The notes beneath the pieces were generated by a model. The model made no database searches. It was not told the origin of the DNA and worked only from the letters and a program-made list of their open reading frames with translations. A program made the position numbers and the translations under genes. DNA of 64,000 bases from Closterium sp. NIES-65 (lineage: Eukaryota > Streptophyta > Zygnematophyceae > Desmidiales > Closteriaceae): assembly GCA_948144175.1 (NCBI GenBank), contig CANXME010002160.1, positions 1,497,501-1,561,500 on the forward strand, in the 5' to 3' direction. Below, piece by piece: positions 27,091-64,000 of the stretch (its first letter is position 1; every line of letters starts with the position of its first letter).

Positions 27091-27690
27091 GTAGCTATCT
27101 TTGACCTTGACTTTGATGCTATTCTTGCTGCCATGTATGCTGTGACTATTAGTGAGGAGGGTGACTGTTACCGGTGGTTTTCGCCCGACCCGGGCATTGA
27201 CACTGCTGCTCTAGGTACTGGTGAGGCTGCTGCTCTAGGTGCTAGCGAAATTGTTGCTCTAGGTGCCAGTGCGTATGCTTCCTCAGGTGCTGGTGAGTCT
27301 GCTCTCTCAGGTACCGCGTCGGCTTCGACCTCCCACACCTTCACCCTTGACTCGGGGGCTTCTCGCTCCTTCTTTCGAGACCGCACCACACTCACGCCGC
27401 TTCGTCGGCCAGTTGCAGTCTCTCTGGCAGACCCCTCTGGGGGTCCTGTCCTTGCTCACTTCTCCACTGTCCTCCCGTGTCCGGCGGGCCCCTCTGGCAC
27501 CCTGTCTGGTCTTTACCTCCCCTCGTTCTCTATGAACTTGGTGAGTGGTGCTGACCTACAGGATGCAGGGGGTTCACCAGTTCACTCATGCGAGTCAGCG
27601 GTTGACCCACTGCACGGACGCTCGAAGAGGCCGACACCTGGCCACGTTTACACGTCGGCCGGGGTCGAGCCTGTACACACTGACCACTGA
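27085..27690 (+). pseudogene. Copia D protease
   Basis: The 201-codon frame has TFTLDSGASRSFFRD with DSGA intact at 27349-27360, then ADPSGGPVLAHFSTVLPCPA and SGLYLPSFSMNLVSG. This is the aspartic protease that cuts the copia polyprotein. An upstream repeated ALGTGEAAALGASEIVALGAS stretch is a linker. A frameshift near 27560 precedes the pre-integrase part. Confidence 0.9.
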
Positions 27691-28750
27691 GTCCCCTCCA
27701 ATCACTGCGTCAAGTCAGGTAGCTGCGTCGGGTCAAGTGTTTGCTGCAGCGTCCAGGTCTGGTCCTGAGTCTGCCCCCTGCTCGTGTCGCCTCCTGTCTC
27801 ACGAGACTCTGCCCTGGCACCACCGCCTTGGTCACCCCTCCCTGCTTCGTCTTCGAGGCATGGCCTCCCGTCTCCTTGTCTCTGGTCTTCCCTGGTCCCT
27901 CCCTCCCCTTCCTCCAGGGCCTGCCCCTGCCTGCGTCCCTTGTGTCAAGGGGCAGCAGCGGGCTGCCCCTCACTCCTCCCAGTTTCCTCCGACAGAGGCC
28001 CTGCTGCAGACGCTTCACATGGACGTGTGGCGCCCGGCCCGCGTCCGTGGACAGGTCATGAGCGCTTCTTCCTGCTGGTGGTTGACGACTACTCGCGTTA
28101 CACCACAGTCTTCCCCTTGCGCAGCAATTGTGATGTCACTGAGGTGTTGATCGACTAGATCCGCGCAGCTCGTCTCCAGCTCAGGCAGAGCTTCGCCTCG
28201 GACTTTCCTGTTCTGCGTCTGCACTCTGACAGAGGTGGAGAGTTCTCCTCTGGCCTTCTTCAAGCCTACTCTCATGCAGGAGGCATCCGCCAGACCTTCA
28301 GACTCCCCACAGCAAAATGGGATTGCTGAGCGCCGCATTGGCATGGTTATGGACATTGCCCATATGTCCATGATGCATGCGGCTGCCCCCCATTTTCTGT
28401 GGCCGTTTGCGGTTAGGTACGCGGCATATCAGATCAACCTTCAGCCCAGGGTCTCTATGCCGGAGACCTCCCCAACTTTGCTGTGGACGGGGAAGGTTGG
28501 CGATGCGTCTGTATTGTGTGTCTAGGGATCTCGGGCGTTTGTCCGCGACTTGTTTGCGGACAAGTTGTCCCCTCATGCTGCTCCTTGCATCTTCCTTGGC
28601 TTCCCCCCTGACCCGCCAGGGTGGCAGTTCTACCACCCCACCTCTCGCCGTGTTCTGTCCTCCCAAGACGTCACGTTTCACGAGTCCGTCCCCTACTACC
28701 GCCCCTTCCCCTACCACACTCCGTCCCTACCCCCGCCACCGCTCTTCCTT
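27545..28750 (+). pseudogene. Copia D integrase
   Basis: The pre-integrase zinc-binding part includes LPWHHRLGHPSLLRLRG (about 27810-27860). Core pieces include VVDDYSRYTTVFPLRS (about 28078-28125), LHSDRGGEFSSGLL (about 28220-28260) and DSPQQNGIAERRIGM (about 28300-28345), carrying residues of the D,D-35-E type core. The domain ends with FVRDLFADK, FLGFPPDPPGWQFYH and SSQDVTFHESV. TAG at 28156-28158 and 28523-28525 sit where Trp is expected (LIDW and VWG). Frame changes occur near 28200 and 28310. Confidence 0.85.
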
Positions 28751-28799: not shown

Positions 28800-29690
28800 T
28801 TCAGGTGTGCCCCAGGTAGACGCAGTCGAGCCGGTCGAGGTTACTGGTGACTCTAGTGCTGCTGGGGGTGCTGAGCCTAGGGGTGCTGACTCTAGGGGTG
28901 CTGAGCGTGTGGGGGCTACGCATGGGGGTGTTGAGCCTGAGGATGGAACTACTGGGGGTGCTGAGCCTGGGGGTGCTGGGCCTGGGGGTGCTGAGCCTAG
29001 GGGTGCTTCGACTGGGGGTGCTCAGCCGGGGGGTGGTGAGCCTGGGGGTGCTACAACTGGGAGTGCTGAGCCTGGGGGTGCTACGCTTGGAGGTGCTGAG
29101 CCTGGGAGTGAGGAGCCTGAGGTAGCTGGGCCTGCTCGTGTCGCGTTTGGCGGTACTGTGCCTAGAGGTTCTCTGGGTGCTTCGTCTCGCCGGGAGCCAC
29201 TCTCTCCACAGGAACTGCGCGAGTGGTTTGCTCGGCGCTGGAGGCGTGCTGCTGGAGCTGGAGGTTCTTCGGCTGCTTAGGATGCTGGTGTCGCGGGTCC
29301 CGAAGGTGCTCGTACTGGGAGTACTGGAGTTGCTGGACCTGCGGGTACGACTGGAGCTGGAGCTACTGAGGGTGCTGGCGCTGAGGCCACTGCTGTCGGT
29401 CCTGGAGGCGGTCCTGCTGGGGGTGCTACTGTTGCTGCTGGAGGTACTGGAGCTGGAGGTGCTGCTGGTGCTGGTGCTACCACTAGGGGTACAGGTGCTG
29501 TCCTTGCTCTGTCTCGAGTCTGCGCGGCCCCGGCCGTACTTCGTTCCGCTCCTTCAACAAGTTCTTGGTCTCCCGCCTTCTTTTGGTCCTCCTCCTCCCT
29601 TAGAGTGTCCACAGCTTGTCCCCTCACATTTACAATTACAGCCGGCCTCCCCACTACCTGCTCCTTCTCCCTACACAAGTCCTACTAGAG
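28800..29690 (+). repeat. Gly/Ala codon-repeat spacer between integrase and reverse transcriptase of copy D
   Basis: Units of about 15-30 bp such as 'gggggtgctgagcct' repeat from 28850 to 29120 and give GGAEPGGAEPR-like protein. A second tract at 29235-29500 has 'ggagctggaggtgctg' units. Equivalent spacers lie at 6350-6960 in copy A and 13980-14400 in copy B. Confidence 0.8.
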
Positions 29691-30189
29691 GTCTTGCTGA
29701 GCGCCGTGAGCCTGCGTCTCCCCCTGCGTCGCCCGTCCGTGCTGCTCGCACTAGTGGTTGTGGTTTGCGTCAGCGTCCTCCTCCTGTCCCTGGCACGCAC
29801 CGGATGTCTTTGCGTCTGTCCACTGCTCCTGTGCGTGCCCCTTTGCCTTCTCCTCCTGAGTCCTCTCTTCATGCTCTTCCCGACTCGGAGTCGGACTCTC
29901 TTCGTGCTGCCAGTCCTACTGTCACGCGTCTCCTGGCTACTGTCGTCACTGACCCTTCTTTCGAGTCCAATGCTGCGTCTGCCCTAGTTGCTGAGCTCGT
30001 CGACTTTGCTGCTCGCTGTCGTCTAGACTACGCTGCTAGTCTTGTTGCTGAGTCTGAGTCTGTCTGTCGTTCGTCCGTCGGGGGTGAGTGTGCCCTTAGC
30101 ACGGACGTCCTTGAGGACAGACAGGAGGACTTCCAGTGTTTGGCTGCTGCTTCACCTCATCTCGTGTCCGTATTGCTTACCCCTGAGGG

Positions 30190-31285
30190 AGACCCGGATG
30201 CACTTGACATCCCGACTCCGCGCTCTTACGCGGAGGCGATAGAGGCTCCCTACTCCTCTGAGTGGCAGGCAGCTATGGACACAGAGATGGCTTCCCGGAA
30301 GTCCACAAGCACCTACGTTGACGAGGTTCCCCTGCCTGGTGCGAACATCGTCAGTGGCATGTGGATTTTCAGGGTGAAGCGGCCACCGGGTTCTCCGCCT
30401 CTCTTCAAGGCGCGTTACGTGGCTCGTGGCTTTAGTCAGTGGTAGAAAGTTGACTACTTTCAGACCTTCTCTCCCACCCCGAAGATGACCACTCTTCGGG
30501 TACTACTGCACATAGCTGCTCACCGCGACTACAAGCTGTAATCTCTTGACTTCAGCACTGCTTTCTTGCAGGGCAGCCTGCACAAGGAGATCTGGTTGCG
30601 TCGCCCACCTGGCTTCACTGGGTCTTTTCCTCTTGGCACCCAGTGGAGCCTCCGGCGGCCAGTCTACGGTCTCCGCTAGGCGCCCCGTGAGTGGCACGAC
30701 ACACTGAGGACTACACTTGCGGCTCTTGGGTTTGCTCCCTCTACTGCCGACCCATTGCTGTTTCTGCGCACCGACACTTCTTTGCCGCCGTTCTACATCC
30801 TCGTGTACGTCGACGACTTGGTCTTTGCCACAGCTGACACTGGTGGACTCGCCCACGTGAAGTCCGAGCTGTAGAAGAGACACACGTGCACAGACCTGGG
30901 TGAACTGCGCAGCTACCTTGGCTTGCAGATCACCCGGGACAGAGCACGCCGCACCATTACCCTGACTCAGTCACACATGGTGCAGCAGGTCCTTCAGCAC
31001 TTCGGCTTCACGTACTCCTCGCCTCAGGCCACTCCTCTGCCTACTCGCCACTCACTCTCAGCTCTGCCTTCGGATGAGTCCGTAGAGTCGAGTGGCCCGT
31101 ACCCAGAGCTTGTTGGCTGCCTCATGTACCTGATGACCTGCACACAACCTGACCTTGCATACCCTCTTAGCATTCTCGCACGCTATGTTGCTCGTGGGAG
31201 ACACAGACTGAAGCACATGGCTGCAGCGAAGAGGGTGTTGCGCTACTTGTGCAGTACGTCGATCATGGGGCTTGTGCTTGGAGGG
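30190..31285 (+). pseudogene. Copia D reverse transcriptase
   Basis: The domain (RVT_2) starts in PRSYAEAIEAPYSSEWQAAM and FRVKRPPGSPPLFKARYVAR. It passes TAG 30443-30445, then reads VDYFQTFSPTPKMTTLRVLL, a TAA near 30540, STAFLQGSLHKEIWLRRPPG, TAG 30677-30679, APREWHDTLRTTLAALGFAP, YVDDLVFATADT (catalytic YVDD at 30806-30817), TAG 30872-30874, and KRHTCTDLGELRSYLGLQIT to LVGCLMYLMTCTQPDLAYPL. Catalytic residues are intact but four stops disable it. Confidence 0.95.
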
Positions 31286-34867: not shown

Positions 34868-37800
34868 TGGCATGGAATGGCATGTAATGGCATAGCATGA
34901 CAAAAGACGGCACAGCATGACACAAGATGACATAGAATGATACAAGGTGGCACAACATTACACAAACGAGACAGCATGACACAAGATGACATAGAATGAC
35001 ACAAGGTGGCACAGCATTACACAAACGACACAACATGACACACGATGACGTAAAATGACATAAGGTGGCACAAGATTACACAAACAACATAGCATGACAC
35101 AAGATGACATAGAATGACACAAGGTGGCACAGCATTACACAAACGACACAGCATGACACAAGATGACATAGAATGACACAAGGTGGCACAAGATTACACA
35201 AACGACACAGCATGACACAAGATGACATAGAATGACACAAGGTGGCACAGCATTACACAAACGACACAGCATGACACAAGATGACATAGAATGACACAAG
35301 GTGGCACAGCATTACACAAACGACACAGCATGACACAAGATGGCATAGAATGACACAAGGTGGCACAGCATTACACAAACGACACAGCATGACACAAGAT
35401 GACATAGAATGACACAAGGTGGCACACCATTACACAAACGACACAGCATGACACAAGATGACATAGAATGACACAAGGTGGCACAACATTACACAAACGA
35501 CACAGCATGACACAAGATGACATAGAATGACACAAGATGGCACAACATTACACCAACAACACAGCATGACGCAAGATGACATAGAATGACACAAGGTGGC
35601 ACATCATTACACAAACGACACAGCATGACACAAGATGACATAGAATGACACAAGGTGGCACAGCATTACACAAACGACACAACATGACACAAGATGACAT
35701 AGAATGAGACAAGGTGGCACAGCATTACACAAACGACACAGCATGACACAAGATGACATAGAATGACACAAGGTGGCACAGCATTACACAAACGACACAG
35801 CATGACACAAGATGGCATAGAATGACACAAGGTGGCACAGCATTACACAAACGACACAGCATGACACAAGATGACATAGAATGACACAAGGTGGCACAGC
35901 ATTACACAAACGACACAGCATGACACAAGATGACATAGAATGACACAAGGTGGCACAGCATTACACAAACGCCACAGCATGACACAAGATGACATAGAAT
36001 GACACAAGGTGGCACAGCATTACACAAACGACACAGCATGACACAAGATGACATAGAATGACACAAGGTGGCACAGCATTACACAAACGACACAGCATGA
36101 CACAAGATGACATAGAATGACACAAGGTGGCACAGCATTACACAAACGACACAGCATGACACACGATGACATAAAATGACACAAGGTGGCACAAGATTAC
36201 ACAAACGACACAGCATGACACAAGATGACATAGAATGACACAAGGTGGCACAGCATTACACAAACGACACAGCATGACACAAGATGACATAGAATGACAC
36301 AAGGTGGCACAGCATTACACAAACGACACAGCATGACACAAGATGACATAGAATGTCACAAGGTGGCACAGCATTACACAAACGGCACAGCATGACACAA
36401 GATGACATAGAATGACACAAGGTGGCACAGCATTACACAAACGACACAGCATGACAAAAGATGACATAGAATGACACAAGGTGGCACAGCATTACACAAA
36501 CGACACAGCATGACACAAGATGATATAGAATGTCACAAGGTGGCACAGCATTACACAAACGACACAGCATGACACAAGATGACATAGAATGTCACAAGGT
36601 GGCACAGCATTACACAAAGGACACAGCATGACACAAGATGACATAGAATGACACAAGGTGGCACAGCATTACACAAAGAACACAACATGACACAAGATGA
36701 CATAGAATGACACAAGGTGGCACAACAATACACAAACAACACAGCATGACGCAAGATGACATAGAATGACACAAGGTGGCACAGCATTACACAAACGACA
36801 CAGCATGACACAAGATGACATAGAATGACACAAGGTGGCACAGCATTACACAAACGCCACAGCATGACACAAGATGACATAGAATGACACAAGGTGGCAC
36901 AGCATTACACAAACGACACAGCATGACACAAGATGACATAGAATGACACAAGGTGGCACAGCATTACACAAACGACACAGCATGACACAAGATGACATAG
37001 AATGTCACAAGGTGGCACAGCATTACACAAAGGACACAGCATGACACAAGATGACATAGAATGTCACAAGGTGGCACAGCATTACACAAAGGACACAGCA
37101 TGACACAAGATGACATAGAATGACACAAGGTGGCACAGCATTACACAAAGAACACAACATGACACAAGATGACATAGAATGACACAAGGTGGCACAACAA
37201 TACACAAACAACACAGCATGACGCAAGATGACATAGAATGACACAAGGTGGCACAGCATTACACAAACGGCACAGCATGACACAAGATGGCATAGAACGA
37301 CACAAGGTGGCACAGCATTACACACACGACACAGAATGACACAAGATGACATAGAATGACACAAGGTGGCACAGCATTACACAGACGACACAGCATGACA
37401 CAAGATGACATAGAATGACACAAGGTGGCACAGCATTACACAAACGACACAGCATGACACAAGATGGCATAGAATGACACAAGGTGGCACAGCATTACAC
37501 AAACGACACAGCATGACACAAGATGACATAGAATGACACAAGGTGGCACAGCATTACACAAACGACACAGCATGACACAAGATGACATAGAATGACACAA
37601 GGTGGCACAACATTACACAAACGACACAGCATGACACAAGATGACATAGAATGACACAAGATGGCAAAACATTACACCAACAACACAGCATGACGCAAGA
37701 TGACATAGAATGACACAAGGTGGCACAGCATTACACAAACGACACAGCATGACACAAGATGACATAGAATGACACAAGGTGGCACAGCATAATACAAACG

Positions 37801-40800
37801 ACACAACATGACACAAGATGACATAGAATGAGACAAGGTGGCACAGCATTACACAAACGACACAGCATGACACAAGATGACATAGAATGACACAAGGTGG
37901 CACAGCATTACACAAACGACACAGCATGACACAAGATGGCATAGAATGACACAAGGTGGCACAACATTACACAAACGACACAGCATGACACAAGATGACA
38001 TAGAATGACACAAGGTGGCACAGCATTACACAAACGACACAGCATGACACAAGATGACATAGAATGACACAAGGTGGCACAGCATTACACAAACGACACA
38101 GCATGACACAAGATGACATAGAATGTCACAAGGTGGCACAGCATTACACAAACGCCACAGCATGACACAAGATGACATAGAATGACACAAGGTGGCACAG
38201 CATTACACAAACGACACAGCATGACACAAGGTGACATAGAATGACACAAGGTGGCACAGCATTACACAAACGACACAGCATGACACAAGATGACATAGAA
38301 TGTCACAAGGTGGCACAGCATTACATAAACGACACAGCATGACACAAGATGACATAGAATGTCACAAGGTGGCACAGCATTACACAAAGGACACAGCCTG
38401 ACACAAGATCACATAGAATGACACAAGGTGGCACAGCATTACACAAAGAACACAACATGACACAAGATGACATAGAATGACACAAGGTGGCACAACAATA
38501 CACAAACAACACAGCATGACGCAAGATGACATAGAATGACACAAGGTGGCACAGCATTACACAAACGGCACAGCATGACACAAGATGGCATAGAATGACA
38601 CAAGGTGGCACAGCATTACACAAACGACACAGAATGACACAAGATGACATAGAATGACACAAGGTGGCACAGCATTACATAGACGACACAGCATGACACA
38701 AGATGACATAGAATGACAAAAGGTGGCACAGCATTACACAAACGACACAGCATGACACAAGATGGCATAGAATGACACAATGTGGCACAGCATTACACAA
38801 ACGACACAGCATGACACAAGATGACATAGAATGACACAAGGTGGCACAACATTACACAAACGACACAGCATGATACAAGATGACATAAAATGACACAAGG
38901 TGGCACAGCATTACACAAACGACACAGCATGACACAAGATGACATAGAATGACACAAGGTGGCACAGCATTACACAAACGCCACAGCATGACACAAGATG
39001 ACATAGAATGACACAAGGTGGCACAGCATTACACAAACGACACAGCATGACACAAGATGACATAGAATGACACAAGGTGGCACAACATTACACAAACGAC
39101 ACAGCATGACACAAGATGACATAGAATGACACAAGATGGCACAACATTACACCAACAACACAGCATGACGCAAGATGACATAGAATGACACAAGGTGGCA
39201 CAACATTACACAAACGACACAGCATGACACAAGATGACATAGAATGACACAAGGTGGCATAGCATAACACAAACGACACAACATGACACAAGATGACATA
39301 GAATGAGACAAGGTGGCACAGCATTACACAAACGACACAGCATGACACAAGATGACATAGAATGACACAAGGTGGCACAACATTACACAAACGACACAGC
39401 ATGACACAAGATGGCATAGAATGACACAAGGTGGCACAGCATTACACAAACGACACAGAATGACACAAGATGACATAGAATGACACAAGGTGGCACAACA
39501 TTACACAAACGACAGAGCATGACACAAGATGACATAGAATGACACAAGATGGCACAGCATTACACAAACGACACAGCATGACACAAGATGACATAGAATG
39601 ACACAAGGTGGCACAGCATTACACAAACGACACAGCATGACACAAGATGACATAGAATGTCACAAGGTGGCATAGCATTACACAAACGGCACAGCATGAC
39701 ACAAGATGACCTAGAATGACACAAGGTGGCACAGCATTACACAAACGACACAGCATGACACAAGATGACATAGAATGACACAAGGTGGCACAGCATTACA
39801 CAAACGACACAGCATGACACAAGATGACATAGAATGTCACAAGGTGGCACAGCATTACACAAACGACACAGCATGACACAAGATGACATAGAATGTCACA
39901 AGGCGGCACAGCATTACACAAAGGACACAGCATGACACAAGATGACATAGAATGACACTGGGTGGCACAGCATTATACAAAGAACACAACATGACACAAG
40001 ATGACATAGAATGACACAAGGTGGCACAACAATACACAAACAACACAGCATGACGCAAGATGACATAGAATGACACAAGGTGGCACAGCATTACACAAAC
40101 GGCACAGCATGACACAAGATGGCATAGAATGACACAAGGTGGCACAGCATTACACAAACGACACAGAATGACACAAGATGACATAGAATGACACAAGGTG
40201 GCACAGCATTACACAGACGACACAGCATGACACAAGATGACATAGAATGACACAAGGTGGCACAGCATTACACAAACGACACAGCATGACACAAGATGGC
40301 ATAGAATGACACAAGGTAGCACAGCATTACACAAACGACACAGCATGACACAAGATGACATAGAATGACACAAGGTGGCACAGCATTACACAAACGACAC
40401 AGCATGACACAAGATGACATAGAATGACACAAGGTGGCACAGCATTACACAAACGACACAGCATGACACAAGATGACATAGAATGACACAAGGTGGCACA
40501 GCATTACACAAACGACACAGCATGACACAAGATGACATAGAATGACACAAGGTGGCACAGCATTACACAAACGACACAGCATGACACAAGATGACATAGA
40601 ATGACACAAGGTGGCACAGCATTACACAAACGACACAGCATGACACAAGATGGCATAGAATGACACAAGGTGGCACAGCATTACACAAACGACACAGAAT
40701 GACACAAGATGACATAGAATGACACAAGGTGGCACAGCATTACACAAAGAACACAACATGACACAAGATGACATAGAATGACACAAGGTGGCACAACAAT

Positions 40801-43800
40801 ACACAAACAACATAGCATGACGCAAGATGACATAGAATGACACAAGGTGGCACAGCATTACACAAACGGCACAGCATGACACAAGATGACATAGAATGAC
40901 ACAATGTGGCACAGCATTACACAAACGACACAGAATGACACAAGATGACATAGAATGACACAAGGTGGCACAACATTACACAAACGACACAGCATGACAC
41001 AAGATGACATAGAATGACACAAGATGGCACAGCATTACACAAACGACACAGCATGACACAAGATGACATAGAATGACACAAGGTGGCACAGCATTACACA
41101 AACGACACAGCATGACACAAGATGACATAGAATGTCACAAGGTGGCATAGCATTACACAAACGGCACAGCATGACACAAGATGAGATAGAATGACACAAG
41201 GTGGCACAGCATTACACAAGCGACACAGCATGACACAAGATGACATAGAATGACACAAGGTGGCACAGCATTACACAAAGAACACAACATGACACAAGAT
41301 GACATAGAATGACACAAGGTGGCACAACAATACACAAACAACACAGCATGACGCAAGATGACATAGAATGACACAAGGTGGCACAGCATTACATTAACGG
41401 CACAGCATGACACAAGATGGCATAGAATGACACAAGGTGGCACAGCATTAAACACACGACACAGAATGACACAAGTTGACATAGAATGACACAAGGTGGC
41501 ACAGCATTACATAGACGACACAGCATGACATAAGATGACATAGAATGACACAAGGTGGCACAGCATTACACAAACGACACAGCATGACACAAGATGGCAT
41601 AGAATGACACAAGGTGGCACAGCATTACACAAACGACACAGCATGACACAAGATGACATAGAATGACACAAGGTGGCACAGCATTACACAAAAAACACAG
41701 CATGACACAAGATGACATAGAATGTCACAAGGTGGCACAGCATTACACAAACGGCACAGCATGACACAAGATGACATAGAATGACACAAGGTGGCACAGC
41801 ATTACACAAACGACACAGCATGACACAAGATGACATAGAATGACACAAGGTGGCACAGCATTACACAAACGACACAGCATGACACAAGATGACATAGAAT
41901 GTCACAAGTTGGCACAGCATTACACAAACGACACAGCATGACACAAGATGACATAGAATGTCACAAGGTGGCACAGCATTACACAAACGACACAGCATGA
42001 CACAAGATGACATAGAATGACACAAGGTGGCACAGCATTACACAAAAAACACAGCATGACACAAGATGACATAGAATGTCACAAGGTGGCACAGCATTAC
42101 ACAAACGGCACAGCATGACACAAGATGACATAGAATGACACAAGGTGGCACAGCATTACACAAAGAACACAACATGACACAAGATGACATAGAATGACAC
42201 AAGGTGGCACAACAATACACAAACAACACAGCATGACGCAAGATGACATAGAATGACACAAGGTGGCACAGCATTACACAAACGGCACAGCATGACACAA
42301 GATGGCATAGAATGACACAAGGTGGCACAGCATTACACAAACGACACAGAATGACACAAGATGACATAGAATGACACAAGGTGGCACAGCATTACACAGA
42401 CGACACAGCATGAAACAAGATGACATAAAATGACACAAGGTGGCACAGCATTACACAAACGACACAGCATGACACAAGATGACATAGAATGACACAAGGT
42501 GGCACAGCATTACACAAACGCCACAGCATGACACAAGATGACATAGAATGACACAAGGTGGCACAGCATTACACAAACGACACAGCATGACACAAGATGA
42601 CATAGAATGACACAAGGTGGCACAACATTACACAAACGACACAGCATGACACAAGATGACATAGAATGACACAAGATGGCACAACATTACACCAACAACA
42701 CAGCATGACGCAAGATGACATAGAATGACACAAGGTGGCACAGCATTATACAAACGACACAGCATGACACAAGATGACATAGAATGACACAAGGTGGCAT
42801 AGCATAACACAAACGACACAACATGACACAAGATGACATAGAATGAGACAAGGTGGCACAGCATTACACAAACGACACAGCATGACACAAGATGACATAG
42901 AATGACACAAGGTGGCACAACATTACACAAACGACACAACATGACACAAGATGGCATAGAATGACACAAGGTGGCACAACATTACACAAACGACACAGAA
43001 TGACACAAGATGACATAGAATGACACAAGGTGGCACAACATTACACAAACGACACAGCATGACACAAGATGACATAGAATGACACAAGATGGCACAGCAT
43101 TACACCAACGACACAGCATGACACAAGATGACATAGAATGACACAAGGTGGCACAGCATTACACAAACGACACAGCATGACACAAGATGACATAGAATGT
43201 CACAAGGTGGCATAGCATTACACAAACGGCACCGCATGACACAAGAAAGCATAGAATGACACAAGGTGGCACAGCATTACACAAACGACACAGCATGACA
43301 CAAGATGACATAGAATGACACAAGATGGCACAACATTACACCAACAACACAGCATGACGCAAGATGACATAGAATGACACAAGGTGGCACAGCATTACAC
43401 AAACGACACAGCATGACACAAGATGACATAGAATGACACAAGGTGGCATAGCATAACACAAACGACACAACATGACACAAGATGACATAGAATGAGACAA
43501 GGTGGCACAGCATTACACAAACGACACAGCATGACACAAGATGACATAGAATGACACAAGGTGGCACAACATTACACAAACGACACAGCATGACACAAGA
43601 TGGCATAGAATGACACAAGGTGGCACAGCATTACACAAACGACACAGAATGACACAAGATGACATAGAATGACACAAGGTGGCACAACATTACACAAACG
43701 ACACAGCATGACACAAGATGACATAGAATGACACAAGATGGCACAGCATTACACAAACGACACAGCATGACACAAGATGACATAGAATGACACAAGGTGG

Positions 43801-46800
43801 CACAGCATTACACAAACGACACAGCATGACACAAGATGACATAGAATGTCACAAGGTGGCATAGCATTACACAAACGGCACAGCATGACACAAGATGACA
43901 TAGAATGACACAAGGTGGCACAGCATTACACAAACGACACAGCATGACACAAGATGACATAGAATGACACAAGGTGGCACAGCATTACACAAACGACATA
44001 GCATGACACAAGATGACATAGAATGTCACAAGGTGGCACAGCATTACACAAACGACACAGCATGACACAAGATGACATAGAATGTCACAAGGTGGCACAG
44101 CATTACACAAAGGACACAGCATGACACAAGATGACATAGAATGACACAAGGTGGCACATCATTATACAAAGAACACAACATGACACAAGATGACATAGAA
44201 TGACACAAGGTGGCACAACAATACACAAACAACACAGCATAACGCAAGATGACATAGAATGACATAAGGTGGCACAGCATTACACAAACGGCACAGCATG
44301 ACACAAGATGGCATAGAATGACACAAGGTGGCACAGCATTAAACAAACGACACAGCATGACACAAGATGACATAGAATGACACAAGGTGGCACAGCATTA
44401 CACAAACGCCACAGCATGACACAAGATGACATAGAATGACACAAGGTGGCACAGCATTACACAAACGCCACAGCATGACACAAGATGACATAGAATGACA
44501 CAAGGTGGCACAGCATTACACAAACGACACAGCATGACACAAGATGACATAGAATGACACAAGGTGGCACAACATTACACAAACAACACAGCATGACACA
44601 AGATGACATAGAATGACACAAGATGGCACAACATTACACCAACAACATAGCATGACGCAAGATGACATAGAATGACACAAGGTGGCAGAGCATTACACAA
44701 ACGACACAGCATGACACAAAATGACATAGAATGACACAAGGTGGTACAGCATAACACAAACGACACAACATGACACAAGATGACATAGAATGAGACAAGG
44801 TGGCACAGCATTACATAAACGACACAGCATGACACAAGATGGCATAGAATGACACAAGGTGGCACAGCATTACACAAACGACACAGCATGACACAAGATG
44901 ACATAGAATGACACAAGGTGGCACAGCATTACACAAACGACACAGCATGACACAAGATGGCATAGAATGACACAAGGTGGCACAACATTACACAAACGAC
45001 ACAGCATGACACAAGATGACATAGAATGACACAAGGTGGCACAGCATTACACAAACGACACAGCATGACACAAGATGACATAGAATGACACAAGGTGGCA
45101 CAGCATTACACAAAAAACACAGCATGACACAAGATGACATAGAATGTCACAAGGTGGCACAGCATTACACAAACGGCACAGCATGACACAAGATGACATA
45201 GAATGACACAAGGTGGCACAGCATTACACAAACGACACAGCATGACACAAGATGACATAGAATGACACAAGGTGGCACAGCATTACACAAACGACACAGC
45301 ATGACACAAGATGACATAGAATGTCACAAGTTGGCACAGCATTACACAAACGACACAGCATGACACAAGATGACATAGAATGTCACAAGGTGGCACAGCA
45401 TTACACAAACGACACAGCATGACACAAGATGACATAGAATGACACAAGGTGGCACAGCATTACACAAAAAACACAGCATGACACAAGATGACATAGAATG
45501 TCACAAGGTGGCACAGCATTACACAAACGGCACAGCATGACACAAGATGACATAGAATGACACAAGGTGGCACAGCATTACACAAAGAACACAACATGAC
45601 ACAAGATGACATAGAATGACACAAGGTGGCACAGCATTACACAAACGACACAGCATCACACAAGATGACATAGAATGACACAAGGTGGCACAGCATTACA
45701 CAAACGACACAGCATGACACAAGATGACATAGAATGACACAAGATGGCACAGCATTACACAAACGACACAGCATGACACAAGATGACATAGAATGACACA
45801 AGGTGGCACAGCATTACACAAACGACACAGCATGACACAAGATGACATAGAATGTCACAAGGTGGCATAGCATTACACAAACGGCACAGCATGACACAAG
45901 ATGAGATAGAATGACACAAGGTGGCACAGCATTACACAAGCGACACAGCATGACACAAGATGACATAGAATGACACAAGGTGGCACAGCATTACACAAAG
46001 AACACAACATGACACAAGATGACATAGAATGACACAAGGTGGCACAACAATACACAAACAACACAGCATGACGCAAGATGACATAGAATGACACAAGGTG
46101 GCACAGCATTACATTAACGGCACAGCATGACACAAGATGGCATAGAATGACACAAGGTGGCACAGCATTAAACACACGACACAGAATGACACAAGTTGAC
46201 ATAGAATGACACAAGGTGGCACAGCATTACATAGACGACACAGCATGACATAAGATGACATAGAATGACACAAGGTGGCACAGCATTACACAAACGACAC
46301 AGCATGACACAAGATGGCATAGAATGACACAAGGTGGCACAGCATTACACAAACGACACAGCATGACACAAGATGGCATAGAATGACACAAGGTGGCACA
46401 GCATTACACAAACGACACAGCATGACACAAGATGACATAGAATAACACAAGGTGGCACAGCATTACACAAACGACACAGCATGACACAAGATGACATAGA
46501 ATGACACAAGGTGGCACAGCATTACACAAACGCCACAGCATGACACAAGATGACATAGAATGACACAAGGTGGCACAGCATTACACAAACGACACAGCAT
46601 GACACAAGATGACATAGAATGACACAAGGTGGCAGAGCATTACACAAACGACATAGCATGACACAAGAAAGCATAGAATGACACAAGGTGGCACAGCATT
46701 ACACAAACGACACAGCATGACACAAGATGACATAGAATGACACAAGATGGCACAACATTACACCAACAACACAGCATGACGCAAGATGACATAGAATGAC

Positions 46801-49751
46801 ACAAGGTGGCACAGCATTACACAAACGACACAGCATGACACAAGATGACATAGAATGACACAAGGTGGCATAGCATAACACAAACGACACAACATGACAC
46901 AAGATGACATAGAATGAGACAAGGTGGCACAGCATTACACAAACGACACAGCATGACACAAGATGACATAGAATGACACAAGGTGGCACAACATTACACA
47001 AACGACACAGCATGACACAAGATGGCATAGAATGACACAAGGTGGCACAGCATTACACAAACGACACAGAATGACACAAGATGACATAGAATGACACAAG
47101 GTGGCACAACATTACACAAACGACACAGCATGACACAAGATGACATAGAATGACACAAGATGGCACAGCATTACACAAACGACACAGCATGACACAAGAT
47201 GACATAGAATGACACAAGGTGGCACAGCATTACACAAACGACACAGCATGACACAAGATGACATAGAATGTCACAAGGTGGCATAGCATTACACAAACGG
47301 CACAGCATGACACAAGATGACATAGAATGACACAAGGTGGCACAGCATTACACAAACGACACAGCATGACACAAGATGACATAGAATGACACAAGGTGGC
47401 ACAGCATTACACAAACGACATAGCATGACACAAGATGACATAGAATGTCACAAGGTGGCACAGCATTACACAAACGACACAGCATGACACAAGATGACAT
47501 AGAATGTCACAAGGTGGCACAGCATTACACAAAGGACACAGCATGACACAAGATGACATAGAATGACACAAGGTGGCACATCATTATACAAAGAACACAA
47601 CATGACACAAGATGACATAGAATGACACAAGGTGGCACAACAATACACAAACAACACAGCATAACGCAAGATGACATAGAATGACATAAGGTGGCACAGC
47701 ATTACACAAACGGCACAGCATGACACAAGATGGCATAGAATGACACAAGGTGGCACAGCATTAAACAAACGACACAGCATGACACAAGATGACATAGAAT
47801 GACACAAGGTGGCACAGCATTACACAAACGCCACAGCATGACACAAGATGACATAGAATGACACAAGGTGGCACAGCATTACACAAACGCCACAGCATGA
47901 CACAAGATGACATAGAATGACACAAGGTGGCACAGCATTACACAAACGACACAGCATGACACAAGATGACATAGAATGACACAAGGTGGCACAACATTAC
48001 ACAAACAACACAGCATGACACAAGATGACATAGAATGACACAAGATGGCACAACATTACACCAACAACATAGCATGACGCAAGATGACATAGAATGACAC
48101 AAGGTGGCAGAGCATTACACAAACGACACAGCATGACACAAAATGACATAGAATGACACAAGGTGGTACAGCATAACACAAACGACACAACATGACACAA
48201 GATGACATAGAATGACACAAGGTGGCAGAGCATTACACAAACGACACAGCATGACACAAGAAGACATAGAATGACACAAGGTGGCACAGCATTACACAAA
48301 CGACACAGCATGAAACAAGATGGCATAGAATGACACAAGGTGGCACAGCATTACACAAACGACACAGAATGACACAAGATGACATAGAATGACACAAGGT
48401 GGCACAACATTACACAAACGACACAGCATGACACAAGATGACATAGAATGACACAAGGTGGCACAGCATTACACAAACGACACAGCATGACACAAGATGA
48501 CATAGAATGACACAAGGTGGCTCAGCATTACACAAACGACACAGCATGACACAAGATGACATAGAATGTCACAACGTGGCAGAGCATTACACAAACGGCA
48601 CAGCATGACACAAGATGACATAGAATGACACAAGGTGGCACAGCATTACACAAACGACACAGCATGACACAAGATGACATAGAATGACACAAGGTGGCAC
48701 AGCATTACACAAACGACACAGCATGAGACAAGATGACATAGAATGACACAAGGTGGCACAGCATTACACAAACGACACAGCATGACACAAGATGACATAG
48801 AATGACACAAGGTGGCACAGCATTACACAAACGCCACAGCATGACACAAGATGACATAGAATGACACAAGGTGGCACAGCATTACACAAACGACACAGCA
48901 TGACACAAGATGACATAGAATGACACAAGGTGGCACAACATTACACAAACAACACAGCATGACACAAGATGACATAGAATGACACAAGATGGCACAACAT
49001 TACACCAACAACACAGCATGACGCAAGATGACATAGAATGACACAAGGTGGCAGAGCATTACACAAACAACACAGCATGACACAAAATGACATAGAATGA
49101 CACAAGGTGGTACAGCATAACACAAACGACACAACATGACACAAGATGACATAGAATGAGACAAGGTGGCACAGCATTACACAAACGACACAGCATGACA
49201 CAAGAAGACATAGAATGACACAAGGTGGCACAGCATTACACAAACGACACAGCATGACACAAGATGGCATAGAATGACACAAGGTGGCACAGCATTACAC
49301 AAACGACACAGAATGACACAAGATGACATAGAATGACACAACGTGGCACAACATTACACAAACGACACAGCATGACACAAGATGACATAGAATGACACAA
49401 GGTGGCACAGCATTACACAAACGACACAGCATGACACAAGATGACATAGAATGACACAAGGTGGCTCAGCATTACACAAACGACACAGCATGACACAAGA
49501 TGACATAGAATGTCACAAGGTGGCACAGCATTACACAAACGGCACAGCATGACACAAGATGACATAGAATGACACAAGGTGGCACAGCATTACACAAACG
49601 ACACAGCATGACACAAGATGACATAGAATGACACAAGGTGGCACAGCATTACACAAACGACACAGCATGAGACAAGATGACATAGAATGACACAAGGTGG
49701 CACAGCATTACACAAACGATACAGCATGACACAAGACCGCACAGCATGACA
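34868..49751. repeat. 59-bp satellite array, about 250 copies
   Basis: The unit is gacacaagatgacatagaat + gacacaaggtggcacagcat + tacacaaacgacacagcat (59 bp), tandem over about 14.9 kb. Recurring landmarks on the minus strand between 36551 and 48941 are all separated by whole multiples of 59 (472, 590, 708, 767, 531, 885, 649, 1298, 826, 944 bp), so there is essentially no net length change in the array. Units differ by a few substitutions (for example gaatgtcac, aaaggacac, caacaatac, caccaacaac). The left edge at 34868-34910 grades into looser decamers, and the right edge ends at 49751. Minus-strand frames of 113 codons within it are by-products of the repeat. Confidence 0.97.
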
Positions 49752-54984: not shown

Positions 54985-57900
54985 CTACCCAACCTTCTGC
55001 TTTCCCTTCTCCTTGCTGGTCTCTTCTTCGGACCCTCCTTGCCCCCTCCCATGGCGCAATGCAGCCGCCCTCGTGCGCGTCATGGGACCCTGGGGTCCGC
55101 CCTTCGCCATCTTTGAGCGGATCCTCGCCACGTTCGTCACATGGTCTGCCACCCGCTTGCCCTTACCGTCTTCCAGCACAATCACTCCCGAGGGTCGCAC
55201 CTCCTTCACCGTCCATCGCTGCTGCGACAGCCCCACGTCCAGGGCATGCTTGCGCTGCCTCCTAATGTACACTTCCTCCTCCTCCTGCACTCCTGCTGCT
55301 ACGCCCTTGCCATTGGCCTCTTGCCGTCGCTTATACTGCTCTATGTCCCTCAACTGGGCCACGTGCAGGTTCTCCAGCGCTGCTGGCAGCAGGTGCCTCA
55401 GATACGCTGCCCGCGCGTCCGCCACTGCGACCCACTTTTTTGGTGAGCCCGTAGTGATCACGTCCGCCAAGAGCTTAGGTGCTCCCACCGGCAGCACCGG
55501 CTCCTTCCCAAACAGCAGATAGTAGGGAGAGACGTCCCTTAACGCGGCCTGCTTGCTGAAACGGTACCCTGCCATGACCCAGCAGAGTTTCCTGTCCCAA
55601 TCCCTCTTGTGCTCCTCGCCGTACGCCCGCAACCCTTTCTTCACCGTCTGTACCAGCCTCTCCGTGAGCCCGTCACTTTGCGGATGATAGCGCGACGTGG
55701 TTCTGTGCCGAATGCCGCTGGCCTGCAGCAGCTGGTCAAAGGCCCCGGCAAACTCTGTTCCTTGATCCGTCAACACTTCACCGCATGCCCCTAGCCTGGT
55801 GATCACCATTTCCTCGAAAGCTTCTGCCACGGCTTCCGCTGACTTCTGCACCAGCGGCCTTGCCTCTGCCCATTTGCTAACATGCTCCACCATGAGCAGT
55901 ATGTACCGGCGCCCTTTTGTGGTGACAGGCAGCTCCCCAGCGATGTCTAGCGACCAGCGATACCCCAGGCTCACTATAGGCAGCGGCTGCAGCTCTGCTT
56001 TCTCCCTCTCTAGCACTGCTCGGTTCCTGCAGCATGCATCGCACTTGCTCACCCAGTCTTTGATCTGCTGCCGCATTCCCGCCCACCACCATCCTGTCTG
56101 TACCAGCTGCTGCGTCCGCAAGGGCCCGTAGTGCCCCAGCTTTGCGTGCACTTCGCTGATGATGCCCTCTCGTTCTACAGGCGGCGGTACATGCTTCCAT
56201 CCTTCCCCTGTTCGCAGCTGCACCTGCTCCTTGAACCAGCGGTAGTGTTCACCTCTGGCTCGCACCCGCGCCGACACTGCTCCTTCTTCCGTAGTAGCTC
56301 CCTGTATCCAGGCCAGTGCTGCTGGGTCCTCCCAGATGTCTGCTGGCCCCCCCTTTTGTTCCCCCCAGACCTGCCCCCTGTCCGCTTCCTTCGCCATCGC
56401 CATGAGGCAGGCCGACGGCTGCACCGCTGGTGGATTCCGTGACAGCCCATCCACGTGTTGCATAGTCTTGCCTGGACGATGCCTGATCTCAAAATCGTAC
56501 TCCTGTAACTTCATCGCCCACCGCGCATTCCGCCCCGTCAGGTCTGGCGCCTGCATCAACCAGAGCAGAGGTTGGTGGTCCGTCACTAGCGTGAAATTCC
56601 GGCCCTGCAGGTAGACCCTGAAGTGCTTCACGGCCCACACCACTGCCAGGCCTTCCCCCTCGTAGGAGGAGTAGTTCGCCTCGGCCGCGTTACAGCTGCG
56701 GCTCGCGAAAGCTACCACCTTCTCCTCTTCTCCCTTCATTTGGGTCAGCACTGCACCCATGCCCGCGCTGCTCCAATCCGTGTAGAGTGTGAATGGTAAG
56801 TCCGCCCTTGGCAGCTCCAGCACTGCGCCGTTCTTAACTGCGCCCATCAAGTCCTGCACCGCTCTTTCCTGGTCAGGGCCCCATTCCCACGGCTGATCTT
56901 CCCGAAGCAGCTGGTTCAGTGCTGTGGCTCTGCTACTAAAGTTCGGCACAAACTTACGATAGTAGTTCAAGAAGCCCAGGAGAGCTCGCAGGCTGGATCG
57001 ATCCTTCGGAGTTGCCACTCGGTCCAGCACCTCGACCTTCGCCTTCTGGATCCCGATTTTCCCCCCTTCCACTTCGAGCCCCAGGTAGTACACCGTCGTT
57101 TGGCCGAATGAGCACTTCCCGGGGTGGCAGGTGAGACCTGCCCCCTGTATGGCGCTCAGGGTTGCCTCCACATCGGCCACGTGCGAGCTGCTGTCGGTAC
57201 TGAAGACTATCACATCATCGATGTAGCATGCCGCGTTCTTGACGTCTCGGAGCACCTGATCCATGACTCGTTGGAACTCCGGCGAGGCTGACTTCAGGCC
57301 GAAGGGCAAGAAGTTCCATTCGTACTGCCCATCGGGCCCATGGAATGCGGTTTTCTTCTTGTCTGCCTCCGCTAGCGGGATCTGGTTGAAGCCTTGCCTG
57401 AGATCTAGCGTAGTGAACACCCGTGCCTCCGCTAAGAGATCAAACAGCTCGTCTGGCATTGGTGTCTGGTATCGTTTCATGACCGTGATCTTGTTCAGTC
57501 CCCTATAGTCCCCGCACATCCTTTTAGAAAGCACCTTGCCGGTCAGGTCTGTGCGTGCCGCCACTACGGTCGCCGCTGCATATTCCGAGTTGGACCTCCT
57601 GATAAACCCCGCCTCGAGCAGTTCCTGACACTTCTCTTTGCAGATCCGTACTTCTTCTGCCGTCATCCGGCGCCGCCGCTGGTAGACCGGTATGTCCGTG
57701 GTCAGGTCTAACGTGACTACTGCCATGTTGCATCTCCCGACCTCCTTGAGTGTGTAGGCGAAGGCGGCCCGATGTTTCGTCAGCACCTCCCTCAGCTTCC
57801 CCGCGTCTGCTGCTGACATTCCGTCTCCTATCACCCAATCTGGCTGTCCCTCTGGCCACCCTGGCTGCTTTGCCCTCGGATCTGCCGCCGCCGTAAGTTC

Positions 57901-60900
57901 TTCCTCTGTAGCTGCTGCCTGCTCTGTGGCGCTGCTGCTTCCTGACTGATCTTGCCCCATGACCCCTGCTGTCACGTCCGCTTCCTTTGTGACGGCCATA
58001 AGAGCGAAGTCACTCAGGCCAAATTCCCGCTCATGCCGCTCTCGGCGCCGCTGCTGCTCAATGGCTTCAAAAACCCAATCAAGGTCCTCTCGCTTCTTAT
58101 CCACCGCGGCTTCCTCCCTCTCCCCTGGCAGCCAGATTTCTTCTTGCTCAGCGTAGACCACCGGCCTTTCATCTTCCTCCTCCCAAGGATAGACCCACCT
58201 CCTTTCCAGTGGGTAGCCGCATTCGCGCTGTCGCTCATCGTGCTCCTGAATCTCGCCCAACATTGCACGTGCCAATGCCTCTTTCGCCGCTGACCTCTCT
58301 GTTGGTGGCTGCACCGCTGCTGCTTTATCGCGCTTCCGTTCCCACCGCAGCTGAGAGTGGTACATGCGGATGGTAGCCACAAGCCAGTGCATTACGTTGA
58401 GATCCATAGCCCGACCCAACGCCCTCCTCCTCTCTTCTTCCGTCACCTCCGGGTGTGCCGTCGCATCCATCATGAACCCCATTGCAAGCTCTCTCTCCAG
58501 CGCCGTTGGCTCTTGCCACTCCCCCGTCAAGCAGTCGTACACCATACCTGGACCCGGGTCCTCACCATGCATCCGAAATGCCGTTGCGTTCAGATAGGAC
58601 ACGAACGTAGGCCAGGCCTGCCTTGGCTTGCCCACTTCGTTGCACGGAAACTGAGCCGGATGATCCAACCGCATCACCGGTGCCGCCAACCTTCCTGGTT
58701 CCAGGATGTCCTCCACCAACCGCGGTGTTGGTCTTTCCATGAGTGAGAGTCGGTACTGCAGTGCAGCCTCGCTGACCCCATTAGTCCAGAAGCGGCGAGT
58801 CCGATGCGCTCTGCTCCCCATCTGCGCTCCATCCACGACCACGCCCGGCCCTAGCTCTGCCGTCACCTCCTCGTGCGCCAGCTGCACTTGCTCCCTGATA
58901 TCTCCTTCCATGTCCACATTCTCGACAATGTAGAGCACGTTGCCCTGGATACGCTTTATCAAGCCCAACACTCGTTTCAGCTCTCGGAACAAGCTGCTCC
59001 TTTCGTCCATCAGTCCTCTCCCTGCACCTGCTCGTGAGTAGCCTTGGCACTCCCACCCCGCAATGACTATATCTATCCTTCCCCACTGTCGCAGCTGCTG
59101 TTCGTCCACGTCACGTATATTGCATTGTCCACACTGTAGGCTTCGATCCATGGATTCTGAGCAGAACTGGTGCGGGTAGCGCTCGTGCAACTTGCTCGCG
59201 TGACAAACTGCCATCTTCGCCGCCTCCATGTCGCTTTCAACCAGTATCCATTTCTCTACGCTGATGCCCGACTTCAGCACTGCTGCTAATCCCGTCCCTA
59301 TGCCCCCGAAGAGGTCCAACACCACCGTCGGCCCCAGCAGTCGCTTGGTGTTGGTACAGAGCGCTCTGAGATCTGGTTCCCCTTCTGCTCCTCCCGGATC
59401 CGGCGGCGGCAGCCGCTCGATCTGCTGCCACGTGGGTATGCCCAACTCCTGCCGTATCTCTGCCTCTGTGCACTGATACGCCTCCCTAGGTTCTCTGCAC
59501 ACAAAACGCACTGGCAGCGTGCCGAGTGGTCCGTCGTCCTCCCAGTAGCAGACCCTGTACTGCACTTTCTCTTCCCACATGCAGATAGTGGCACCGATCC
59601 CAAACAAGTACTCTACGCCGATGAGCAGATCGAAATCTTCCGACTCCGATACGCCGCAGTCCACCCGGAGTGCGCACTCTTCCGGAGTTCCCGGATTCAG
59701 CAGAAGGGACATGGACTGCCGAGTCTTCGGCATCCACTTCGCCTCCCCTCCCTCGGCCGTCATCAGCAGGTATCCTTCCGCGATAAGCCGCCCCGGCATA
59801 TGCAGCTGTAACTTCTCCGCCAGGCGTTTACCGATTAGGACATGGGCCGCTCCCGTGTCAACTATAGCCCTTGGTGCCGTGAATCCCCCAATCGTCACCG
59901 CTCCCTCCGCTATGGTCAGCACCGTGGCCTGGCTCGCCATCCTTTCCTTTGGGTGCCTGAATGCCGCTCCTGGGGTCTCCGGCCTATCGCTCGCCCGCCG
60001 TCTCGGCCCGTCCTCCCGCCTGACGTCTTCGGGAAAGTCCTGCCTTCGGGTGCTCCTCCTCAGTCCCAGCTCCTCACGGTCTCGCGCCGGCTGAGCCATG
60101 AGCATGAATTCGGGGTCCTCCGCGTCTGCTTCCTCTTGTGCCACCATGGCCGGCTCCTTCGACTCCGCTGCCTCCAGCTCCGCCAGTTGCGCCCGTAACC
60201 TTGCAATGGTGGCTTGCTTGTCCTCCCCCGCTTCTCCGCCTCGCCGATCCCTTCTCGCCGCGTAACATTCTGCTTCGCGGTGTCCCATCCTGTTACACCT
60301 GGTGCAGCTTGGTGCGCTGGGGCAGTCTCTCCGCATGTGATCTCGGCTCCCGCAGATCGAGCAGGCTGCGGGGTTACGGCAATCCCTTCGGAGATGTCCT
60401 GTCATCCCGCAGTTGTGACAGCGCTGGGGGTCCTCTCGTCCTCTCTCTTCCCCAACCTGATAGGCTGACGTCGCTGCCCACGCCGGGCGCCTCCTTTCCG
60501 GTGCTCTGTCTGCCGACCGTTCTACCTCATACATGCGCCGCCCGGTCTCCACGCGCTTTACGATCTCGTACGCTCCCTTCAACGTAGCCTCAGGCCCCAT
60601 TTCAAATACTCGCACTTCCACATCCTGCCGCAGCGGCTGGCTCAATCCGTTTACAAACTTCCCGATCAACCTGCCCTGATCCGTACAGTTCATGTCTTCC
60701 GCCAACTCCACCAGCCTCCCGTAATACGCAAGTAGAGATTCCCCGTCTCTGCGGCGGAACCCACGAAACTCCACCACCCGCTCCGCTGTCTGCAGCGGGA
60801 ATTGCTCACGCAGCATCGCCAGAAAACGCACCGTCGGATCACGTTCGCCTGGCGCTCTCCCCGCCGCCCAGTCGAGTAGCTCCTTCCTGGAGATCCGGTA

Positions 60901-60999: not shown

Positions 61000-61422
61000 C
61001 TACATGATGTAGTTTTTAAGGCTCGGTCCTCGCCTTGTATCTCCCGAGAACCTCTCCGGCACCTCAATTTTTGGTAGCTGCGTGTACTTCCACCGCAGGA
61101 TCGACGCCTCATCCTCCGTTCCTTGCCACGAGGCACTCCGCTGATATGCGCTCGGCCCTCCTGGCTGCGAACACCCCGGCTGCTGGCTGCGCAGGCGTTC
61201 CCTCTGCTCGTTGGATGCGTTCGTACGGCCATCCTTGTCATTCACGCCATCGCCGCCTTGCGGCCCACTTGCACCATCACTCGGCCCAGTCCGGCCTTCC
61301 GTCCTTCCCGTCTCCTGAGAGAGATCTATCGGCCGACCGTTGCCTTCTTCGTTCACCATTTCCTCCTGGTCCTTCTGCTTGACCGTGACCGACTCTAGCT
61401 TCTTTCCAGATCTTAACCGCAT
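61000..61422 (-). CDS. gag: N-terminal gag of the gypsy element, ended by TAG
   Basis: The 140 codons start at ATG 61422 (MRLRSGKKLE) and end with PSLKNYIM at TAG 61000-61002. The segment ILRWKYTQLPKIEVPERFSG is a gag-like start of the capsid region. The next codons in the same frame, LENLQVRWAKDRLDP, continue gag into the 1999-codon frame, so one TAG separates the two. Either the TAG is a point mutation or it is read through. It lies inside gag rather than at a gag-pol border, which favours mutation. Confidence 0.75.
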   Translation of the reverse strand: MRLRSGKKLESVTVKQKDQEEMVNEEGNGRPIDLSQETGRTEGRTGPSDGASGPQGGDGVNDKDGRTNASNEQRERLRSQQPGCSQPGGPSAYQRSASWQGTEDEASILRWKYTQLPKIEVPERFSGDTRRGPSLKNYIM

Positions 61423-63290: not shown

Positions 63291-63302
63291 CTTGAATACA
63301 TT

Positions 63303-63979
63303 CTATGTTGGAATATACGGTCAGCTCCTAAAGCGTATAGTATATACACCCTTGCGTTTATACGCAAAACGCTATACGCTAGCTAATACGCTATACGCAG
63401 TCAGAAATTGTTAGGGGCTTCCTAGGGAAAAAAAAAGAATCGAAGGTATACAGAAAGATGTGGAATCTGCTGGTGAGCATTTCGCTGAAATCGAGATGCA
63501 AAACGGCGTTCTAGAGAAGGGGATATGTGCCTCCAAAGTTTTCAATCGCGTCTGGCAGTTCAGATTTACAATTCCGATTAGTACCGCATTGAAAACCATC
63601 CCATCTACAAACTCCAATCTGTCAAAACGTCCCCCCAACAAACTCCTCTCACGCTACTTACCAGCCAACCCAGCTGCACTTGTCATATCTACTAGCTTAC
63701 TTTCCCGCTTCCCAACAGAGTTCATTCCGATTCCTACTTCTCCTTTAGCGATAGTGTCTACTACACATCCCACTCCAATCGCCGTTCTGACTTAGGAAAA
63801 TGCTACAAAAGTCTTAGTGAGAATAGAAAATACCTTCCCGATGTAGGGCACGATATTTTTTCACCTGTCCAGGAAAGATCTTCCCTTGCCAAAAAAAGCA
63901 TATGTCCAAACCGGCCCCTAAGTGGATAGTGTATAAGCGATAGCGTGTATATACACTAAACGCGTATATTCCAACATAG
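63303..63979. mobile_element. Complete short hAT-type element with perfect TIRs and 8-bp target duplication
   Basis: The left end ctatgttggaatatacg (63303-63319) and right end cgtatattccaacatag (63963-63979) are exact reverse complements over 17 bp. The flanks aatacatt (63295-63302 and 63980-63987) are an exact 8-bp duplication. Length is 677 bp. Inside each end are many CGTATA/TATACG words (for example 63339-63397 and 63930-63966), possible subterminal binding sites. An 8-bp duplication points to hAT, although the terminal bases are not the usual CAGGG. No transposase is encoded. Confidence 0.92.
63460..63795 (+). other. Unrecognised open frame carried inside the short hAT-type element
   Basis: The plus strand gives 111 codons (ESAGEHFAEIEMQNGVLEKG near the start). 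The minus strand of the same DNA gives AIGVGCVVDTIAKGEVGIG, followed after KLVDMTSAAGLAG by a donor-like gtaagt (about 63660). Either strand could be a captured host gene fragment. I do not recognise a family on either strand. Confidence 0.3.
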
Positions 63980-64000
63980 AATACATTGGGCAATGAATAG

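Follow-up and report, generated by a model that had tools for sequence, protein, structure and literature searches.

A Ty3/gypsy-type element of Closterium sp. NIES-65 with a DNMT3-type methyltransferase domain inside its Pol polyprotein

The stretch of 64,000 nucleotides from Closterium sp. NIES-65 analyzed here (assembly GCA_948144175.1, contig CANXME010002160.1, positions 1,497,501 to 1,561,500; hereafter the window) harbors on its minus strand a retrotransposon whose Pol polyprotein includes a cytosine-5 DNA methyltransferase domain. It is probable (roughly 0.6) that this is a near-complete Ty3/gypsy copy, interrupted by one stop codon in gag, and that its DNMT3-type domain was captured in ancient times and marks the complementary DNA (cDNA) of the element itself.

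Structure of the element

The core of the element is a single open reading frame (ORF) of 1,999 amino acids at 60984-54985 (minus strand, as are all features of the element given below), which comprises the rest of gag, protease, the DNMT3-type domain, reverse transcriptase (RT), RNase H and integrase and does not contain an internal stop. With the whole ORF, Pfam matches above the cut-off were obtained for zf-CCHC, DNA_methylase, RVT_1, RT_RNaseH, Integrase_H2C2 and rve. According to profiles made from relatives, the methyltransferase domain covers residues 539-880 (58345-59370). It is preceded by the aspartic protease region (residues 346-478, 59551-59949; DTG motif at 59830-59859), for which Pfam matches stayed below the curated cut-off, and followed by the RT (residues 1085-1305, 57070-57732; YIDD motif at 57205-57225), RNase H (residues 1363-1500, 56485-56898) and an integrase consisting of the H2C2 zinc-binding part and the DDE core (residues 1600-1786, 55627-56187). 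In the integrase, the motifs SLDIAG, TDQGTEF and GLTERLV were read as D, D and E, with 35 positions from the second to the third. Three CCHC-pattern zinc knuckles of gag were located at 60265-60420, where Pfam recognized two zf-CCHC stretches. Hence, the order protease, RT, RNase H and integrase of a Ty3/gypsy Pol is present in the ORF, along with the CCHC motifs of gag, the YxDD motif of the RT and the DDE motifs of the integrase. A search with the RT-to-integrase region listed 120 of 145 passing proteins, most of them with gypsy-type domain sets and several named Gypsy retrotransposon integrase-like. The domain sets and the names of these relatives support the assignment of this pol, in which a DNMT3-type domain is embedded, to the Ty3/gypsy type, the RT tree described below containing no named Ty3 reference.

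The methyltransferase domain gave Pfam DNA_methylase matches with E values of 1.4e-6 for the whole ORF and 8.5e-8 for a piece of 320 amino acids, above the curated cut-off. Along 59316-58402, motifs I (DLFGGIGTG), II (VESD), IV (ECQGYS, 59035-59052), VI (ENV), VIII (SRAHRTRRFWTN), IX-like (EDILEP) and X (ERELAMGF...LGRAMD) follow each other, the motif numbers being those which we presume to apply. The order is canonical and not permuted as in DRM. Profiles clearly, and fold comparison modestly, identify the domain as DNMT3-type by descent. The closest solved structures are host DNMT3 proteins of animals, which are similar in motifs VIII and X; they share only approximately 20-26% identity with the domain, which differs from them by its ECQ motif IV and its position inside a retrotransposon polyprotein. 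According to PMC5890265, bryophytes have host DNMT3 as well. An origin from phages or bacteria may also be considered, but both single-sequence and profile searches favor DNMT3. Among phage records, 186 had a match of less than 60% identity (31.5% for the best of the 20 listed), none with 80% query coverage. Pattern scans of genome contigs (15 stretches) and viral contigs (two) did not reveal any relative by tblastn.

In a preliminary description of the window, a methyltransferase domain with these motifs had been placed between protease and RT within one open frame. The 1,999-amino-acid ORF and the Pfam matches, including that of the 320-residue piece delimited there, confirmed this, and the location was right, though the domain turned out to be slightly wider than given there. 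Its view that RT, RNase H and integrase are apparently intact holds for the motifs of RT and integrase but has to be qualified for the copy as a whole, which has an in-frame TAG at 61000-61002 and lacks a detectable pair of long terminal repeats (LTRs). These two features had escaped it, as had the ECQ sequence in motif IV. The TAG terminates an ORF of 140 codons (61422-61000) that represents the gag start and is separated by this codon from the 1,999-amino-acid ORF in the same frame. In the closest relative, P0001, the frame is uninterrupted at this point, and its gag start is 71% identical (34/48) to the last 48 residues of the 140-codon ORF. Barring stop readthrough or a sequencing error, the window copy appears to be interrupted once, inside gag.

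An LTR pair was not found when the region 60.9-64.0 kilobases (kb) was compared to 49.9-55.1 kb by blastn; the 5' LTR could lie beyond position 64000. A blastn comparison of both flanks to the whole window did not yield an LTR match above chance either, nor did local alignments judged against shuffles. Downstream of the element, a pair of 46-bp repeats (54408 and 54501) occurs at a distance of 93 bp. Neither the whole pair nor its 47-bp middle had an upstream partner above shuffles, and DIRS-like repeats were not found. A candidate for a transfer RNA primer-binding site near 61450, picked by eye, was unsupported and dropped. The frame of nearly 2000 codons and the missing LTR pair would suit a domesticated host gene that retained the polyprotein and lost its LTRs. 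Nevertheless, domestication is very improbable because the motifs of RT and DDE integrase, seldom needed by domesticated genes, are intact, many relatives exist in Closterium, gag has an in-frame stop and the 5' end of the element is possibly situated beyond the window edge.

Relatives and history of the domain

The domain was detected in 23 long polyproteins, of which 12 belong to Closterium, one to Klebsormidium nitens and one to a species labeled Tetstr, which we take to be Tetraselmis striata. Matches to the domain alone numbered 52 (45 from Closterium). Where 80% of the query was covered, the relatives were up to 79% identical, and on shorter pieces the identity was 85-95%. The element itself thus points to a Closterium as its probable host. 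Among the 120 proteins listed by the RT-to-integrase search, Marchantia polymorpha is represented by P0158, which combines protease, methyltransferase, RT and RNase H. A layout scan covering 186 sequences revealed two positions of the domain. In the commonest layout, found in Closterium, Marchantia and others, the methyltransferase is located ahead of the RT, in the second one between RNase H and integrase (e.g. P0017, P0090 and P0105). For ten of the 15 post-RNase H rows of the methyltransferase tree, the precomputed Pfam list includes a PHD finger as well. In the RT tree, 27 relatives (Closterium strains, Marchantia and others) contain the methyltransferase ahead of the RT within one protein, which makes a chimeric assembly very unlikely. 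An artefact of assembly or annotation joining a gypsy element with a separate methyltransferase gene, contradicted by these records, has a practically negligible probability. Four other gypsy polyproteins (P0109, P0161, P0162 and P0173) have 388-634 residues from RNase H to integrase and no methyltransferase match; in this stretch, Pfam detected a PHD finger in P0109 and nothing in P0161.

The class as such is already known. According to PMC5890265, KnitGypsy-Dnmt3 of K. nitens is an element with a Ty3/gypsy domain set whose Pol, like that of the window element, includes a DNMT3-type domain without rearrangement, whereas the DNMT-bearing elements of dinoflagellates are LINE and DIRS elements. 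The preliminary description, which had named both groups, was therefore correct for Klebsormidium but not for the type of the dinoflagellate elements. SymbioDIRS-Dnmt3 of Symbiodinium resembles the window element in that a DNMT3-type domain and an RT share one ORF, and it also occurs with two domain orders; it differs by its tyrosine recombinase, where the window element has a DDE integrase, and by its DIRS structure and dinoflagellate host (PMC5890265). For KnitGypsy-Dnmt3, the same paper describes DIRS-like repeats (A-coding-B-A-B), while none were detected at the ends of the window element. PMC12344493 mentions some DNMT3 members embedded in retrotransposons (LTR Copia, DIRS) of streptophytes and dinoflagellates, thereby restating the 2018 paper PMC5890265, which it cites and which is the only description of DNMT-bearing gypsy elements that was found. 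A literature search, with subscription journals mostly outside its coverage, did not reveal any report on a Closterium or Marchantia element of this kind. What is new are the wider range of relatives, the two domain positions and the ECQ motif IV.

The K. nitens protein P0014 (KFL_013780020), treated here by assumption as the KnitGypsy-Dnmt3 element, consists of gag, protease and DNMT, and its domain is 36% identical to that of the window. By contrast, it possesses a PCQ motif IV and ends two residues past the DNMT match, while the window element has ECQ and a continuous Pol frame. P0013 and P0020 likewise stop 2-3 residues past the methyltransferase match, P0014 being marked as partial. On the other hand, the K. 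nitens ORF P0110 and eight more ORFs without the domain start 53-242 residues ahead of the RT and have a PHD finger at their end, for which the window ORF gave no Pfam match. Proteins ending at the methyltransferase, together with RT ORFs devoid of it, suggest a two-ORF layout in these elements.

To trace the history of the domain, an RT tree was calculated by a quick search with Shimodaira-Hasegawa-like approximate likelihood ratio test (SH-aLRT) values only; it is unrooted, with a midpoint root for drawing. It comprised 81 of 122 usable rows, namely all 41 with the methyltransferase and 40 of 81 without it. A branch with an SH-aLRT value of 100 separated 30 of the 40 domain-less rows from the 41 domain rows and the ten remaining domain-less ones, which are nine short RT ORFs with a PHD end and P0101, where the gene model includes a fused RAD50-like ATPase. 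As the tree is unrooted, the domain may have been gained on this branch or lost across it, and since the midpoint root nests domain-less rows within domain rows, repeated loss is as open as a single gain. The methyltransferase tree comprised 71 of 100 element rows, 29 with fewer than 230 aligned columns being left out, and as references two DNMT3 and four phage rows. The 71 element rows were split from these six at 100/100, a value that comes with a long-branch warning. P0044, filed under a metagenome-assembled genome of Candidatus Obscuribacterales, groups among the element domains and is probably a misbinned eukaryotic contig. The post-RNase H rows formed one clade in the RT tree (13 rows, SH-aLRT 99) as well as in the methyltransferase tree (15 rows, 94/82). 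At the base of this clade, both trees placed P0089, which has a broken motif IV and the domain ahead of the RT.

RT and methyltransferase distances were correlated in a Mantel test (r 0.77, none of 5000 permutations as high, n=38), also when the set was collapsed to 23 (r 0.36, 7/5000) or confined to 11 elements with the pre-RT position (r 0.60, 0/5000). The trees and this test weaken the idea that elements with the pre-RT position have no relation to those of the post-RNase H type. RT and methyltransferase appear to share a history, so that the domain was probably acquired by one old capture and later inherited together with Pol; one relocation would fit the two positions. Several independent DNMT captures by gypsy elements across green lineages are rather unlikely, even though PMC5890265 favors acquisition within the K. 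nitens lineage. The position of the domain in Pol differs between the two groups, and the methyltransferase tree is devoid of green-plant host DNMT3, so host sequences could split the element clades. Against several captures speak the common separation of the 71 element rows from the references and the monophyly of the post-RNase H group in both trees.

Motif IV and the proposed role

To our knowledge, the Pro-Cys dipeptide of motif IV is nearly universal among cytosine-5 methyltransferases, in which the cysteine and the glutamate of the ENV motif are catalytic. In the window domain, both catalytic residues are present, but a glutamate replaces the proline ahead of the cysteine. An alignment of 100 element rows showed ECQ in 46 (window included), PCQ in 17, other residues in 12 and gaps in 25, while all six reference rows have PC. 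The cysteine is absent in three of the 75 lettered rows (P0023, P0103 and P0104), though the gene model of P0023 may be faulty. Glutamate occurs in 41 of 66 tree rows scored as E or P, and changes between the two residues were counted four times on the methyltransferase tree with the motif column and six times on a quick tree without it. A recurrent glutamate next to the nucleophile is arguably the strangest feature of the family.

It is conceivable that the domain descends from DNMT3 but has ceased to act as an ordinary DNA cytosine methyltransferase because the exchange of proline by glutamate has turned it into a nucleic-acid binding or processivity domain of Pol or led to another substrate, e.g. 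genomic RNA. Beside the prevalence of ECQ, the repeated E/P changes and the rows without the cysteine, the stronger divergence of the methyltransferase compared to the RT (56% versus 72% identity between window and P0001) is in line with such an altered function. Yet it is unlikely, since cysteine and ENV glutamate are retained in nearly all ECQ rows having these columns; exceptions are P0024 with KNV and P0012, P0027, P0040 and P0049 with EH in place of EN. Switching between glutamate and proline under retention of the cysteine suggests tuning rather than decay, and the ECQ motif suggests an altered catalytic setting in which both catalytic residues are kept.

Methylation of the element's own cDNA would be the likeliest and most economical role. 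As part of Pol, the methyltransferase would be expected to be packaged together with RT and integrase and might act on the cDNA during or soon after reverse transcription. In this case, the cDNA would be methylated first and the integrated copy would already be marked, resemble host DNA and be quickly tied to the maintenance methylation of the host. In PMC5890265, cDNA self-methylation is discussed for SymbioDIRS-Dnmt3, whose domains methylated CG in yeast, and self-methylation of elements is still a hypothesis. Several observations weigh against the view of an anciently captured, self-marking domain. According to the same source, the domain of KnitGypsy-Dnmt3 was inactive in yeast, a result which its authors judged inconclusive. 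The window domain has Glu-Cys instead of the Pro-Cys of canonical C5 methyltransferases, and in P0103 and P0104, a domain in the post-RNase H position is kept although its motif IV lacks the cysteine. For 12 collapsed post-RNase H elements, the correlation between RT and methyltransferase was weak (r 0.33, 454/5000). Finally, this copy itself may be inactive, judging from the TAG inside gag and the lack of a detectable LTR pair.

A more far-reaching version of the proposed self-marking can be put forward tentatively. A single ancient capture of DNMT3 may have founded a green-lineage gypsy clade, including elements of Klebsormidium, Closterium, Marchantia and perhaps Tetraselmis, in which the domain moved across Pol, in one branch from ahead of the RT to the site past RNase H, and switched repeatedly between Pro-Cys and Glu-Cys, the glutamate form being a new catalytic type that marks its own cDNA.

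Genomic setting and significance

The observed/expected CpG ratio was 0.85 in the element, 0.49 in its left flank, 0.81 in its right flank and 0.62 in the whole window. The value of the element thus gives no trace of prolonged methyl-cytosine decay, in keeping with a copy that is young or little methylated. Approximately 15 kb of the window (34888-49736) are occupied by a satellite array with a 59-bp unit and about 94-95% matches. Copia-type remains were identified on the plus strand by Pfam matches to RVT_2 (8000-8626) and GAG-pre-integrase (27545-28147); ORFs beside them (5767-7740, 27085-27687 and 29138-30442) did not give a match in a Pfam scan. On the 5' side of the element, an inverted repeat (63295-63987), whose 25-nucleotide arms are 92% complementary and separated by 643 nucleotides, resembles a small terminal-inverted-repeat transposon.

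DNA methylation is usually directed at retrotransposons, whereas the elements described here have apparently retained a methyltransferase of their own for a long time. Their deep set of relatives, in which the domain occupies two positions and has two catalytic motifs, opens the question of how a retrotransposon benefits from a DNMT to comparative and biochemical tests in algae that can be cultured. P0158 of Marchantia would extend this question to a model land plant.
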